Positions 4,467-9,196 of a stretch of 21,950 bases of DNA are shown here, piece after piece. Within the stretch, counting starts at the first letter, position 1; each line of letters begins with the position of its first letter. Position numbers and translations under genes: made by a program. This DNA comes from a virus: positions 1 through 21,950 of IMG/VR virus record IMGVR_UViG_3300032820_000141; one strand, 5' to 3'. The notes beneath the pieces were generated by a model. It had not been told where the DNA came from and ran no database searches. It was given only the letters and a program-made list of their open reading frames with translations.

Positions 4467-5375
4467 ATGAACATCGAACGCAGAGATTATGACCTTGAGG
4501 GCCTAGAGGTTCGCGAGACGGAGAGCGGGAAGACCATCAGGGGACTCGCTCTTCCCTTCAATCGAAACAGCGCCGACTTGGGGGGCTTCATCGAACGCAT
4601 CCAACCGGGAGCCGTCTCGGTCGACAACACCGACATCGTGATGCTCTGGCAACACGACTCGACGGACCCGATCACCAGACAGTCGAGCGGGCTCGAACTC
4701 GAAGTGCGGAAGTCCGGTCTCTGGTTTGAGGCACAGGCCACGGACTTCAGCGACCGCCAGTTGGATCTACTCCAGCGCGGCGTGGTCAAGCACATGAGCT
4801 TCGGCTTCGTCACCATCGACGACGAGTGGGAGCAGGAGTCGAAGCCCGTCAGGCGGACGCTCAAGGAGATCGAACTGCGCGAGATCAGTCCGGTCACTTG
4901 GCCAGCGTACAAGCAGACGAGCGTGGCGGTGCGTAGCGCCCAAGAGGCGGGCATCGACTTGCGCGTGGTGCCTGACAACATCAGCACGGCAGTGGACGAG
5001 GACCGTCGCACCCCGTGGGAGAAGCCTCGGCTCGAAGACTTCACCTCGGAGCAGTGGGCTGATCTCAGCGCAGAGGAGCGCGACGACATAGCGGGCCACT
5101 TCACGTGGGCACCGACGATGCCGCCGGACAGCTTCAGTGAGTTGGCGCTACCGCATCACAGGGCGTCGGACGGCAAGGTGATCTGGCGTGGCTTGGTCGC
5201 CGCCGCTGGCAGGCTCGACCAGACGCGACTGCCTGAGAGCGCGATGGGCGCGGTACGAGCCCACCTCGCGGCCCACTACAAGGCGTTCGGCGAGGAGGCA
5301 CCGTGGGAGAGGAGCGCACCGGACGACGAGACGATGCGGCGGGAGCGGTTGCGGCTGGTCACGCTCGACCTATGA
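4467..5375 (+). CDS. HK97-type prohead (maturation) protease with extra C-terminal domain
   Basis: This serine protease cleaves the capsid N-terminal scaffold (delta) domain during head maturation. In the 302-aa protein, residues about 1-165 form the protease: GLALPFN near residue 27, catalytic His63 in LWQHD, catalytic Ser111 in KHMSFGF and the ELREISPVTWPAY block (137-148) are all family hallmarks. Typical HK97 proteases are about 170-230 aa. Here residues about 180-285 form an additional domain with WADLSAEERDDIA, LPHH (228-231), VIWRGLVAAAGRL and AHLAAHYKAFG blocks, a module I recognise as an appendix of other phage head-maturation proteins, without known function. The ribosome-binding site GAGGA (4454-4458) has 8-base spacing. 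The stop overlaps the next start as ATGA. Confidence 0.93.
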   Translation: MNIERRDYDLEGLEVRETESGKTIRGLALPFNRNSADLGGFIERIQPGAVSVDNTDIVMLWQHDSTDPITRQSSGLELEVRKSGLWFEAQATDFSDRQLDLLQRGVVKHMSFGFVTIDDEWEQESKPVRRTLKEIELREISPVTWPAYKQTSVAVRSAQEAGIDLRVVPDNISTAVDEDRRTPWEKPRLEDFTSEQWADLSAEERDDIAGHFTWAPTMPPDSFSELALPHHRASDGKVIWRGLVAAAGRLDQTRLPESAMGAVRAHLAAHYKAFGEEAPWERSAPDDETMRRERLRLVTLDL

Positions 5376-5527: not shown

Positions 5528-5531
5528 GGAC

Positions 5532-5559
5532 AAAAAAAAGAGGGGGCCTCTCGGCCCCC
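5532..5559 (-). terminator. Intrinsic terminator of the reversed helicase gene
   Basis: A perfect 7-bp GC stem lies at 5542-5548 and 5553-5559 (GGGGGCC / GGCCCCC) with a 4-base loop. Read on the minus strand it is followed by a short TC and eight T residues (the plus-strand A8 at 5532-5539), a textbook Rho-independent terminator starting just 11 bases past the helicase stop. On the plus strand no T-run follows the stem, so it should not stop plus-strand transcription efficiently. Confidence 0.9.
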
Positions 5560-5570
5560 CCCCTCTCCCC

Positions 5571-7523
5571 TCAGTATTCGCCGCCGCCCCAGTGCGTAGC
5601 GCAGATGGGGCCGATCCCGTCCTTCACTGACTTGGGGTCGGTGAGTTCGGCTCCGCAGTTGGAGCAGACGCCCGTCTCGCGACCGTGGCGGCGGGCGGCA
5701 CCGATGGGGTCTTCGTCAATCGCGAGGAGGTCGATGCCCGTCTGGGTGTCGGCGCTTCCCACGGGGCGGAACACGCTGTCCGGCGTGACCTTGCCCTGAT
5801 ACTCTCCGTCACGCTTCACGTACAGGCATCCGGCGTTGTTGCCCTGCTCTGGCGCGGTCGTGATCCTCAGTGATCCGACGGCGAGGCGCGGACGGTTGAC
5901 CGTTGCGCCTGCCCGATTGAACGCCCCTATGAGTCCCGGCACTGTGATGGCGCTCTGGGGCGCTGGGGTGGCTTCTAACAGGTCGCGCAGTGTGACCACT
6001 GGGGCTGGTGCGGCTGGGGCCTTGGGGGCCGCTACAGTGTCGAGGCTGGCGTCGAGCACTCCCTGCTTCTGGACGACCAGTTCGACCTGACGGGCGTCGA
6101 TGCTCTGGTCGACCACTAGGTGCTGAACCAACACGCTGTCGTGTTGGCCGATGCGGTGGCACCTGTCCTCGGCCTGCGACAGGTTCCCCGGCACCCAATC
6201 CAGTTCGGCGAAGATTACGTGGGAGGCGCGGGTCAGCGTGATGCCGACGCCAGCCGCTCCGAGGGAACCGATGAACACGTCCACGTCGCCGCGCTGGAAG
6301 CTCTCTACTGCCGCCTGCCGCTCCTCGGAGGTGTTGTCGCCTGTCAGGGTTACGCAGTCGAGTTCCGACGCGAGGGCGGTGATCACGTCCTTGTGGTGGG
6401 CGAAGACTACGACCGGATGGTCGATGTTTTTCAAGTGGTCGAGGATCGCTGGCACCTTGGCTCGTGCCATCAGGTGGCGCTCACCCGAAAGCTCGTCGAA
6501 CTTGATCCGAGGCGATGTGGTCTGCGACTCGGCTTCCGCGAGTTCCTGCACCCTGAGTTCCTCTGTGTAGTCTGCGCCGTCGAGCACGATGACCTGACGC
6601 CGCTTCGGCGGTAGCTCGTTGAGCACGTCGGCCTTGAGGCGGCGTACCATGATGGAGCTACGCAGTTGCTCCTGAAGCTCGGGGAGGTTGGACGCGCCCA
6701 AGAAGTCCCAGCCGTGGCGAGTCTGGTGGGCGTTGCAGTAGCGTTTGGCGAACTTGAAGAAGTGGCCGAAGCGCGACGGCGCGAGGTAGCCAGCGATGGG
6801 CTGGATCTCGACGGGCCTGTTCGGGATCGGCGTCCCCGTGAGTACCAGCTTCCGCTCGGCGCTGATGGCGAGCGCGGCCTTGGTGCGCTTGGTCTTCGGG
6901 TTCTTGCAATAGTGGGACTCGTCGAGCACGACGATGCCCCACGTGCGTCCGTGCAATGCGTCGGCGTGTTTGGCCAGCACGTCGTAGTTGATGACCACGA
7001 CATCTGGATCGGCTGGGAAGACTTGCCCCCCACCGTTCACGATGTCGATCCGACGCTCGTCCACCAGCCACCGCTGGAGTTCGTTCCTCCAGTTGAGCTT
7101 GAGCGAGGCAGGGCAGACGATGAGCACGGTCTCGGGGCGCGTGGCGTTGATGACGCCGATGGCTTGGATGGTTTTTCCCAAGCCCATCTCATCGGCTATG
7201 AGCGTGGCGTCACGCCCGAGCGCGTAGGCGATCCCGGCCCGCTGGAACGGGAGGTACTCAAGCCCGTCAGGGGAGGGGATGTCGATGGTCGCGTCGGTGG
7301 CGCGGGACGCCTCGACGGTGGCCTCGACCTCGGCGGCGTCAGGCGTCGTCCAGTGGGAGACTTGCCACTTGCCCTGATACTTCGAGACGCGGTAGCCCAG
7401 CGCCTTCAGATCATCCTTGTGCGAGCGCCACACTTCCCAGAACTCGGGCGTGGGCGTGGCCGAGCGCACGGTGCGTCCGTCCGGCAGTTCCTTGGTCTCT
7501 CCCCACGTCAGGTCGAACTCCAT
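5571..7523 (-). CDS. SNF2-family (SMARCAL1-like) helicase/ATPase with C-terminal zinc-binding motif
   Basis: This is an ATP-driven DNA translocase of helicase superfamily 2. The 650-aa protein has Walker A DEMGLGKT (111-118), DESH (201-204), TGTP (229-232), a GVGITLTRASHVIF block (425-438) and arginine-finger motif RCHRIGQ (454-460). It then has a Pro/Ala-rich linker (about 498-525) and a C-terminal C620-x2-C623...C641-x2-H644 motif in a CGAELTDP...GIGPIC context, like DUF6011-type zinc modules. The start at 7523 is chosen because AAGGGGAG sits 7 bases upstream; the frame is open to 7808, but the upstream part lacks family character. Such helicases normally sit in phage replication modules. 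Here it lies alone, reversed, between protease and capsid genes, with its own terminator. It could aid replication restart, recombination or transcription. ATPase identity is sure; role is not. Confidence 0.93.
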   Translation of the reverse strand: MEFDLTWGETKELPDGRTVRSATPTPEFWEVWRSHKDDLKALGYRVSKYQGKWQVSHWTTPDAAEVEATVEASRATDATIDIPSPDGLEYLPFQRAGIAYALGRDATLIADEMGLGKTIQAIGVINATRPETVLIVCPASLKLNWRNELQRWLVDERRIDIVNGGGQVFPADPDVVVINYDVLAKHADALHGRTWGIVVLDESHYCKNPKTKRTKAALAISAERKLVLTGTPIPNRPVEIQPIAGYLAPSRFGHFFKFAKRYCNAHQTRHGWDFLGASNLPELQEQLRSSIMVRRLKADVLNELPPKRRQVIVLDGADYTEELRVQELAEAESQTTSPRIKFDELSGERHLMARAKVPAILDHLKNIDHPVVVFAHHKDVITALASELDCVTLTGDNTSEERQAAVESFQRGDVDVFIGSLGAAGVGITLTRASHVIFAELDWVPGNLSQAEDRCHRIGQHDSVLVQHLVVDQSIDARQVELVVQKQGVLDASLDTVAAPKAPAAPAPVVTLRDLLEATPAPQSAITVPGLIGAFNRAGATVNRPRLAVGSLRITTAPEQGNNAGCLYVKRDGEYQGKVTPDSVFRPVGSADTQTGIDLLAIDEDPIGAARRHGRETGVCSNCGAELTDPKSVKDGIGPICATHWGGGEY

Positions 7524-7625
7524 CTCGGTACTCCCCTTATGAAGGCGAACATCATCCATACAGTCAATCTGGGGACATCTGTCCTCTGACGCAAGGGGTA
7601 TGACCACATTCGTTTCGAGGTCGTG

Positions 7626-7655
7626 TTGACGGGTGGGCGGGCATCCCCCTAGATT
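7626..7655 (+). promoter_or_regulatory. Candidate sigma70-like promoter for the capsid operon
   Basis: TTGACG (7626-7631) is separated by 18 bases from TAGATT (7650-7655). The -35 matches five of six consensus positions and the -10 four of six. It lies about 175 bases upstream of the major capsid start, in the correct orientation. The capsid gene needs its own promoter, or very long read-through across the antisense helicase, which supports the reading. GC-rich DNA gives few chance TTGAC sites, but the -10 is imperfect. Confidence 0.4.
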
Positions 7656-7799
7656 GCCTTCAGTAAATCGGGAAAGCGTGACGGGGGCGGACGGCCCACG
7701 ACAACCGGATCGCTTTCTCAGGTCAGTGCGTGACGCTCGGCGAGCGCGACTGCCCAACGTACCACATGGTTCACGTGGTGCTGGGGCAGTCCATCTTTC

Positions 7800-7821
7800 C
7801 CCCGGCACAACACAACCGGGG
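7800..7821 (+). promoter_or_regulatory. Hairpin overlapping the major capsid ribosome-binding site
   Basis: CCCCGG (7800-7805) and CCGGGG (7816-7821) form a perfect 6-bp GC stem with a 10-base A/C-only loop. The 3' arm contains the GGGG of the ribosome-binding site GGGGAG (7818-7823), which is 5 bases before the capsid ATG. The stem would hide the site when folded, so it could set or delay capsid translation. Regulation is inferred; the pairing is seen. Confidence 0.45.
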
Positions 7822-7828
7822 AGACCTA

Positions 7829-9196
7829 ATGAAGATTCGCGAGAAGGCGCGAGAACTGAAGGCTCAGTGTGAAGAGCTTTTGAGTTGCGCCGAATCCGAG
7901 GATCGCACCCTGAGTGACGACGAGCAGAAGCAGTACGACGCCAGCTTCGTCGAACTCGAAGGTGCCTTGGCGCAGATCCGACGCGCCGACGAGCTTGCGG
8001 TAGTCAGCGCAGGGCTCGCAGAGCCAGCAACGCCACCGCTAGGGCCGACAGCGGCACTAGAGCCGGAGCAGACACGCGACGAGACGGCAGACATAGTTGT
8101 CGGCCACGACCGCGCTGTTGCGAAGGGCTTCGACAACATCGGCGAGCAGTTGCAGGCAATCGCACACGCTTCGCATCCAGAGAGTCGCTATGAGAGTATC
8201 GACAAGAGGCTCTTCTTCCTGCAAGAGCGTGGTGGCAATCCCGAGGGCGAGATCCGGCAATCGGGTGCCAGTGAGGCAGTCGCATCGAAGGGCGGCTACC
8301 TTGTGCAGAAGGACTTCAACGACCAGATCCTTGAGAGGGTCTACAGCATCGGCGAGGTGGCCTCCAGAGTGACGAGGCAGGCCATCGGACCCAACGCCAA
8401 CGGGCTCAAGTTCAACATCATCGACGAGTCCAGCAGGGCGGCAGGATCTCGGTGGGGCGGCGTCCGTGCCTACTGGGTGGCAGAGGCAGGAGCACTGACC
8501 GCCAGCGAGCCTACCTTCGCACAGGTCGAACTGACCTTGAAGAAGGTTGCGGCCCTGTTCTACTCCACGGAAGAACTCCTCATGGATCAGACCGCCTTGG
8601 CGGGCTTGGTCGAGAGAGTGGTTCCGCAGGAGATCATGTTCAAGGTCGAAGAGGCTATCCTTGGTGGATCAGGTTCAGGCCAGCCGCTCGGCATCAGCAA
8701 CAGTGCCGCGATAGTGAGTCAGGCCAAGAAGAGCGGCCAGACGGCGACCACTATCGTCACTGACAACGTGACCAATATGTGGTCACGCCTCTGGGGTCCG
8801 TCCAGAGCCAACGCAGTGTGGCTCGTCAATCAGGACGCAGAACCGCAGTTGAGCACTATGGCAGACGCCAACGGTAACAGTCTTTACATTCCACCGGGAG
8901 GGCTGTCAGATACGCCCTACTCGCGCCTGTTCAACAGGCCAGTGATCATGTCTGAGTACTGCGCCACGCTTGGCACCGTTGGAGACATCCAACTGCTCGA
9001 CTTGAGCCAGTACTTTGTGATCGACAAAGGCGGGGTGCGCGGAGATTCTTCCATGCACGTTCGCTTCCTCTACGACGAGAGAGCTTTCAGATGGATGTTC
9101 AGGGTCGATGGCCAGCCTAGCTGGAACTCGGCACTGACGCCGCTGAACGGCTCGAACACTCTCTCGCCATTCGTCAACCTCGCGACAAGGAGCTAG
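7829..9196 (+). CDS. Major capsid protein, HK97 fold
   Basis: This protein forms the icosahedral shell. With the ATG at 7829 (GGGGAG, spacing 5) it has 455 aa. Residues about 1-140 are charged and helical (KIREKARELKAQCEELL at the start), the usual delta/scaffold domain removed by the prohead protease; the mature part begins around the SKGGYLVQKDF block near residue 153. Family features include an E-loop/P-domain region (WVAEAGALTASEPTFAQVEL), KKVAALFYSTEELLMDQ, a GSGSGQPLGI turn and an ERAFRWMFRVDGQP end. The frame is open to 7730, but that extension has no ribosome-binding site and overlaps the regulatory region. It is followed after 6 bases by a probable decoration protein. Confidence 0.96.
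   Translation: MKIREKARELKAQCEELLSCAESEDRTLSDDEQKQYDASFVELEGALAQIRRADELAVVSAGLAEPATPPLGPTAALEPEQTRDETADIVVGHDRAVAKGFDNIGEQLQAIAHASHPESRYESIDKRLFFLQERGGNPEGEIRQSGASEAVASKGGYLVQKDFNDQILERVYSIGEVASRVTRQAIGPNANGLKFNIIDESSRAAGSRWGGVRAYWVAEAGALTASEPTFAQVELTLKKVAALFYSTEELLMDQTALAGLVERVVPQEIMFKVEEAILGGSGSGQPLGISNSAAIVSQAKKSGQTATTIVTDNVTNMWSRLWGPSRANAVWLVNQDAEPQLSTMADANGNSLYIPPGGLSDTPYSRLFNRPVIMSEYCATLGTVGDIQLLDLSQYFVIDKGGVRGDSSMHVRFLYDERAFRWMFRVDGQPSWNSALTPLNGSNTLSPFVNLATRS

Follow-up and report, generated by a model that had tools for sequence, protein, structure and literature searches.

The protease-capsid junction of an uncultured siphophage lineage as a probable moron slot, with an SNF2-family helicase among its cargoes

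We analysed a viral metagenome record of 21,950 bases (the window) containing the head-tail operon of an HK97-type siphophage, in which an SNF2-family helicase gene stands in reverse orientation between the genes of the prohead protease and the major capsid protein (MCP). In this uncultured lineage the protease-MCP junction is very probably a moron slot with interchangeable cargo, the helicase being one mobile cargo, because the junction is empty in some relatives and otherwise filled with other genes or with the helicase, and because the helicase family also occurs in other contexts. On the same grounds, the proposal of the initial annotation that the helicase is an inserted, autonomous expression unit (moron) is upheld.

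The helicase unit and its borders

The plus strand of the window carries, in this order, genes for the small and large terminase, portal, S78 protease, MCP, connector and tail. The slot is bordered on its left by the prohead serine protease (Peptidase_S78; positions 4467-5375, plus strand, Pfam E 5e-33) and on its right by the MCP (7829-9196, plus strand, Pfam Phage_capsid E 6e-49). An MCP start at GTG 7730, as given by the longest open reading frame (ORF), was rejected, since homology and the Shine-Dalgarno (SD) sequence place the start at 7829; this leaves a 305-nt spacer that accommodates a structured leader and a pair of predicted, divergent promoters. The cargo (5571-7523, minus strand) encodes 650 amino acids from an ATG start. 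ORF, Pfam and PHROG evidence agree with the original call of a minus-strand SNF2 helicase at this place, and every other convincing gene in the window is on the plus strand, as had been claimed. The helicase also has the SD attributed to it, GGGGAG, 7 nt before the ATG (7532-7537, minus strand, within GGGGAGTACCGAG-ATG). Its intrinsic terminator (5531-5566, minus strand), recognised by a terminator scan and from the sequence, begins about 5 nt past the helicase stop codon and consists of a G+C-rich hairpin (about 5540-5566; scan core 5552-5538) followed by eight T; the T-run is absent from the plus strand, so that the terminator is indeed specific to the minus strand. The unit thus has a predicted terminator of its own, as a moron should, and similar minus-strand terminators directly follow the protease stop in L083, L084-L086 and L090.

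The protein contains both the N-terminal SNF2 domain (SNF2-rel_dom, E 1e-39) and the C-terminal helicase domain (Helicase_C, 3e-17) that define the SNF2 family, with the motifs intact (DEMGLGKT, DESH, LTGTP and QAEDRCHRIGQ, identified by eye), and a DUF6011 zinc finger at the C-terminus (9e-11). Its PHROG match is phrog_62, 'DNA helicase' (E 4e-108). The AlphaFold2 model (pLDDT 80) has the SNF2 motor fold, with fold matches at E below 1e-22, the best among solved structures being SNF2 remodellers, and the predicted activity of the enzyme is ATP-driven translocation on dsDNA. A HARP-like N-terminus, as in SMARCAL1, was sought and no Pfam match was obtained, even at E 10. Assigned from family membership, the role of the protein would be to help phage DNA metabolism or to clear proteins or structures from phage DNA.

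Phage SNF2 helicases of phrog_62 (Rhodothermus phage RM378, Thermus phages phiLo and MN1), annotated as DNA helicases, are homologous in the SNF2 core at 40-42% identity. However, they match residues 53-496 only, whereas a match over the entire protein, with the C-terminal DUF6011 part, was found only in the uncultured phages L002-L005, at 76-77% identity. Unlike these known phage SNF2-type helicases, the helicase of the window stands within a head operon. A search of bacterial and archaeal genomes returned relatives of the helicase core alone (≤51% identity), MCP matches among GenBank phages were distant (below 60% identity), and among the papers available for a search on phage SNF2 morons none was relevant.

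Occupancy of the junction in related phages

Relatives were gathered by helicase, protease and MCP, their junctions were surveyed by tblastn and the protease-MCP gap was measured; all are metagenome fragments, and the comparison covers MCPs 66-90% identical to that of the window. The uninterrupted protease-capsid junction for which the initial annotation had proposed to look was found in six phage types (L102; L087/L088; L104; L103; L105/L106; L115/L116), with a gap of 188-268 nt versus 2456 nt in the window and MCPs 66-79% identical. The remaining types have gaps of 519-1507 nt with other genes inside, and in about ten of them (L083, L084/L085, L090, L096, L097, L107, L109, L111, L113, L114, L183 and L185) the cargo is again on the minus strand. 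The helicase itself is held by just two of about 19 junction types. The second is L094, where it is 90% identical over the 180 residues present and lies behind two small genes; this fragment ends inside the helicase, and its protease side is unseen. The initial annotation had held that the helicase would be an old core gene if all close relatives carried it, and six empty types and about ten with other cargo speak against this. The helicase therefore lies between genes that are adjacent in relatives, at a site which in other relatives holds different inserts.

Cargo differs even where the capsid genes stay about 90% alike, because L085 (MCP 90% identical to the window) carries two minus-strand genes, L083 (87%) one minus-strand gene and L082 a single plus-strand ORF. 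In a tree of the MCP, g9203 and connector proteins, L085, with its different cargo, is nearest to the window by path, and an AU test did not reject a single acquisition of the helicase in the common ancestor of the window and L094 (p 0.29). L086 apparently lacks one of the two genes of L084, the proteases of both being equally close to that of the window. L096 (1-1311) has three minus-strand cargo genes in tandem with terminator-like hairpins between them. Most cargo ORFs were called from ORF, header and orientation, and a family search left most of them without a match. The orientation of the cargo is not absolute, given the plus-strand ORF in L082 and a small plus-strand gene next to the protease in distant members. 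This small gene, between the protease and the minus-strand cargo in L097, L107, L111, L183 and L185, has no family match; its product has an N-terminal membrane segment and looks holin-like by eye. The protease varies as well: its C-terminal 120-130 residues (about 170-300 in the window) are absent in L090 (5000-5294), L097 (5275) and L109, and this extension is therefore optional.

The distribution could also be read in the opposite direction, with the helicase as an old core gene of this position that was lost or replaced in relatives, so that the slot would be ancestral and no insertion would have taken place. Cargo also stands at the junction in the most divergent clade members (L183/L185, L109/L111 and the L096/L107 group), and the empty junctions belong mainly to one clade plus L102, suggesting that an occupied junction may be ancestral. 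The codon usage of the helicase, which fits the phage (RSCU correlation 0.86 vs 0.86-0.94 for structural genes), is in line with this reading; its GC content (0.65 vs 0.58-0.65 in other window genes) shows no deviation either, so that the deviant base composition which is a frequent, non-essential trait of morons was sought and not found, and a recent foreign origin, as judged by composition, was rejected. However, the helicase is confined to so few junction types, the immediate relatives carry unrelated cargo, and the closest other helicases (76-77%) stand in other genomic contexts. We therefore regard an ancestral helicase as unlikely.

Helicase relatives in other contexts and the role of the enzyme

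The helicase gene of L003/L004 (76% identical) has divergent replication genes as neighbours (DnaB_C, DUF3799 nuclease, ERF and VRR_NUC), and that of L002 (76-77%) lies on a phage fragment which matches none of the virion genes of the window. From these contexts it follows that the helicase family moves between phages. Downstream of its helicase, in the same region and direction, L004 has genes homologous to two other cargoes of the junction (small94, 88% to L094; L107c, 58%). The L003/L004 context therefore indicates that the junction shares a gene pool with what looks like an early region. The proximity of the homologues to replication genes favours a role of the helicase in phage DNA metabolism.

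Morons often serve the prophage or its host, and the helicase might accordingly be a defence or counter-defence factor (e.g., related to ZorD, DrmD or DpdE) acting in superinfection exclusion. The SNF2 cores of ZorD, DpdE and DrmD match the protein with E-values down to 9e-51, and ZorD is among the fold matches of the model. However, the match is limited to the shared SNF2 core, partner genes and a nuclease domain are both lacking, and the nearest homologues (L003/L004) adjoin replication genes. Membership in these families was rejected at the NCBIfam cut-offs for ZorD (107.6 bits vs 1500), DrmD (78.5 vs 950 and 70.5 vs 610 bits) and DpdE (59 vs 500 bits). Curated defence cut-offs being missed by far, a defence role becomes less likely, and we consider it improbable compared with a function in phage DNA metabolism.

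A shared header in front of the cargo genes

The cargo genes of many relatives are preceded by a header in which a -35 box, TTGCGT or TTTACA, is followed after 16-18 nt by a -10 box. By comparison of these headers, we predict the helicase promoter at 7566-7594 (minus strand), with -35 TTGCGT (7589-7594), a 17-nt spacer and -10 CAGATT (7566-7571); a consensus promoter scan alone did not call a minus-strand promoter for the helicase. The aligned header of L107 reads TTGCGT-N17-TATAAT. The end of the SD leader, GGAG.ACCGAG-ATG, is common to the window, L083 and L094 and similar in L248 and L004.

The promoter spacer of the window contains an operator-like palindrome, GGACATCTGTCC (7573-7584), found once in the window with 0.02 expected. 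The palindrome GGACA-N2-TGTCC is at the same place in the window, L083 and L094; other palindromes occupy the spacer in L085 (GGGCATATGCCC) and L107 (TAGACG-N3-CGTCTA). It is individually significant only in L085, L094 and L107 (window p 0.11) and absent or weak in five of 12 headers, and across all headers its significance is weak, so that we treat it as no more than suggestive.

The header recurs outside the junction. That of L094 (1001-1093) matches, over 72 nt at 87.5%, a second header in L248 (161-260; G002), which has a second copy of the palindrome and stands at the late region's distal end before a gene of 196 amino acids (phrog_9742) that is likewise directed against the late genes. 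L096 has three tandem, near-identical copies of its own header, one per cargo gene, and the operon leading to the L004 helicase opens with a similar leader. This recurrence suggests that accessory genes at dispersed places are co-regulated separately, perhaps through a repressor, and expression of the helicase before the late genes, from the shared header, is plausible from the sequence.

We propose that the cargo has a header of its own (a sigma70-like promoter with a conserved SD leader), which in several members has a palindromic, operator-like spacer, that transcription from this header would mostly run against the late operon, and that the cargo transcript would end at an intrinsic terminator just past the protease stop. 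The header would thus be a repressor-controlled promoter, making cargo expression independent of late transcription and likely early. In the window it would drive a short-leadered helicase mRNA away from the MCP, and the terminator would keep this mRNA out of the protease.

The capsid promoter and the question of interference

The MCP has its own predicted promoter, TTGACG-N18-TAGATT (7626-7655, plus strand); 0.2% of shuffled sequences contained one equally good, and equivalents are present in L174, L100, L173, L177 and L104. In the empty junctions of L102, L103 and L104 the predicted MCP -35 box (TTGACY) overlaps the last protease codons. The predicted helicase and MCP promoters of the window diverge, 31 bp separating their -35 boxes, and the terminator is predicted from sequence to halt helicase transcripts before the protease.

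It could be argued that the reversed unit is mainly regulatory, its minus-strand transcription interfering with, or separating, the terminase-portal-protease and MCP-tail transcripts. The unit and the upstream operon face each other, the terminator of the unit works in one direction only, and the junction appears to be a transcription boundary since the MCP has a promoter of its own. However, six junction types without a reversed unit retain the leader, several of them also retaining the MCP promoter, and the promoters of MCP and cargo point away from each other; moreover, the intact frame and conserved motifs of the helicase indicate that the protein is under selection. We therefore consider a mainly regulatory unit very unlikely. 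The transcription interference with the head operon suggested in the initial annotation is not supported: interference with the capsid gene is unlikely because the helicase and capsid transcripts diverge, the terminator precedes the protease, and only read-through of the upstream terminase-portal-protease transcript could collide with the helicase transcript. Overall, the earlier reading is supported as to the insertion and not as to interference, and it missed both the other minus-strand cargo of the relatives and the leader of the MCP.

A structured leader RNA of the capsid gene

The MCP leader contains a conserved structured core (7667-7755, plus strand), identified by folds, alignment and a covariance model, which consists of a bulged hairpin (P1-P1b-P2) and a second hairpin (P3). 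The rest of the leader up to the SD (7756-7828, plus strand) is predicted to fold into the hairpins CUGCCC/GGGCAG and CCCCCGG/CCGGGG, present in part of the lineage only. The core directly follows the MCP promoter in all 26 loci having the region, regardless of cargo, with E 3e-10 or better, although the 18 distinct sequences from which the covariance model was built match partly by construction. All sequences folded singly (17 of 17) share the layout of P1, bulged P1b-P2 hairpin and P3, the single-sequence z-scores being modest (+0.1 to -3.5). P1 changes freely in sequence; the P1b-P2 hairpin has its loop around GACG, and P3 lies around UGACGC..GC.CGA. Across the 17 modelled pairs, which do not include P1, 92.8% are formed in the alignment versus 77.0% in shuffled and 23-38% in slid alignments, 12 of the 17 have changed on both sides, and covariation is strong, with a score of 0.50 vs 0.19.

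The leader shares with the cis-regulatory RNAs of Rfam that it is a structured 5' leader of a protein gene. The leader region yielded no Rfam family even at E 5, and none passed the gathering threshold on the whole window. The leader was not found in those other MCP relatives that were searched (42-48% identity), and a pattern scan of viral contigs combined with the covariance model gave only weak matches outside the lineage. The two best full-length matches were rejected, one (L321) lying inside a coding ORF and the other (L191) being followed by no capsid gene in its sequence. More distant phages (L119-L123, L141 and L143) have another conserved-looking MCP leader, GTCGCTGTC..GGCAACGGCAGAATGCGCCAAATT, which might be a second leader RNA. 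Among the papers available for a search on capsid-leader RNA motifs, none was found to describe this leader. The leader RNA is probably a more novel feature than the cassette and possibly represents a new class of cis-regulatory RNA; as to its role, we would guess at control of the stability or translation of the capsid message. A still wider reading, in which the junction is the hub of a dispersed regulon (anti-late cargo with a repressor-controlled header) with the capsid operon under a new class of leader RNA, is put forward tentatively, as we consider it doubtful.

Comparison with a known moron and implications

The pid moron of phage P22 lies in the late region, where relatives have no insert or another one, and it is transcribed in the opposite direction and has a Rho-independent terminator (PMC3573128). 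The unit of the window shares with it the variable site, the opposite direction and the terminator (PMC3573128). However, pid is one ORFan of 86 amino acids, whereas the cargo here is an enzyme of 650 amino acids or, in relatives, an operon with as many as three genes. The slot described here lies between protease and MCP, and one relative has the shared promoter header at another place as well. The unit is a new and unusually well-documented moron, its unusual points being the enzyme cargo and the shared header.

For this lineage, the junction provides a clean natural series within a structural operon, in which the same site is empty or carries one gene, several genes or an enzyme; since the promoter header and terminator can be seen as well, the gain and exchange of accessory genes can be traced. 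The series also suggests that enzymes of the replication type can travel as mobile cargo inside head genes, and the adjacent leader RNA offers a testable candidate for the control by a phage of its most abundant protein.
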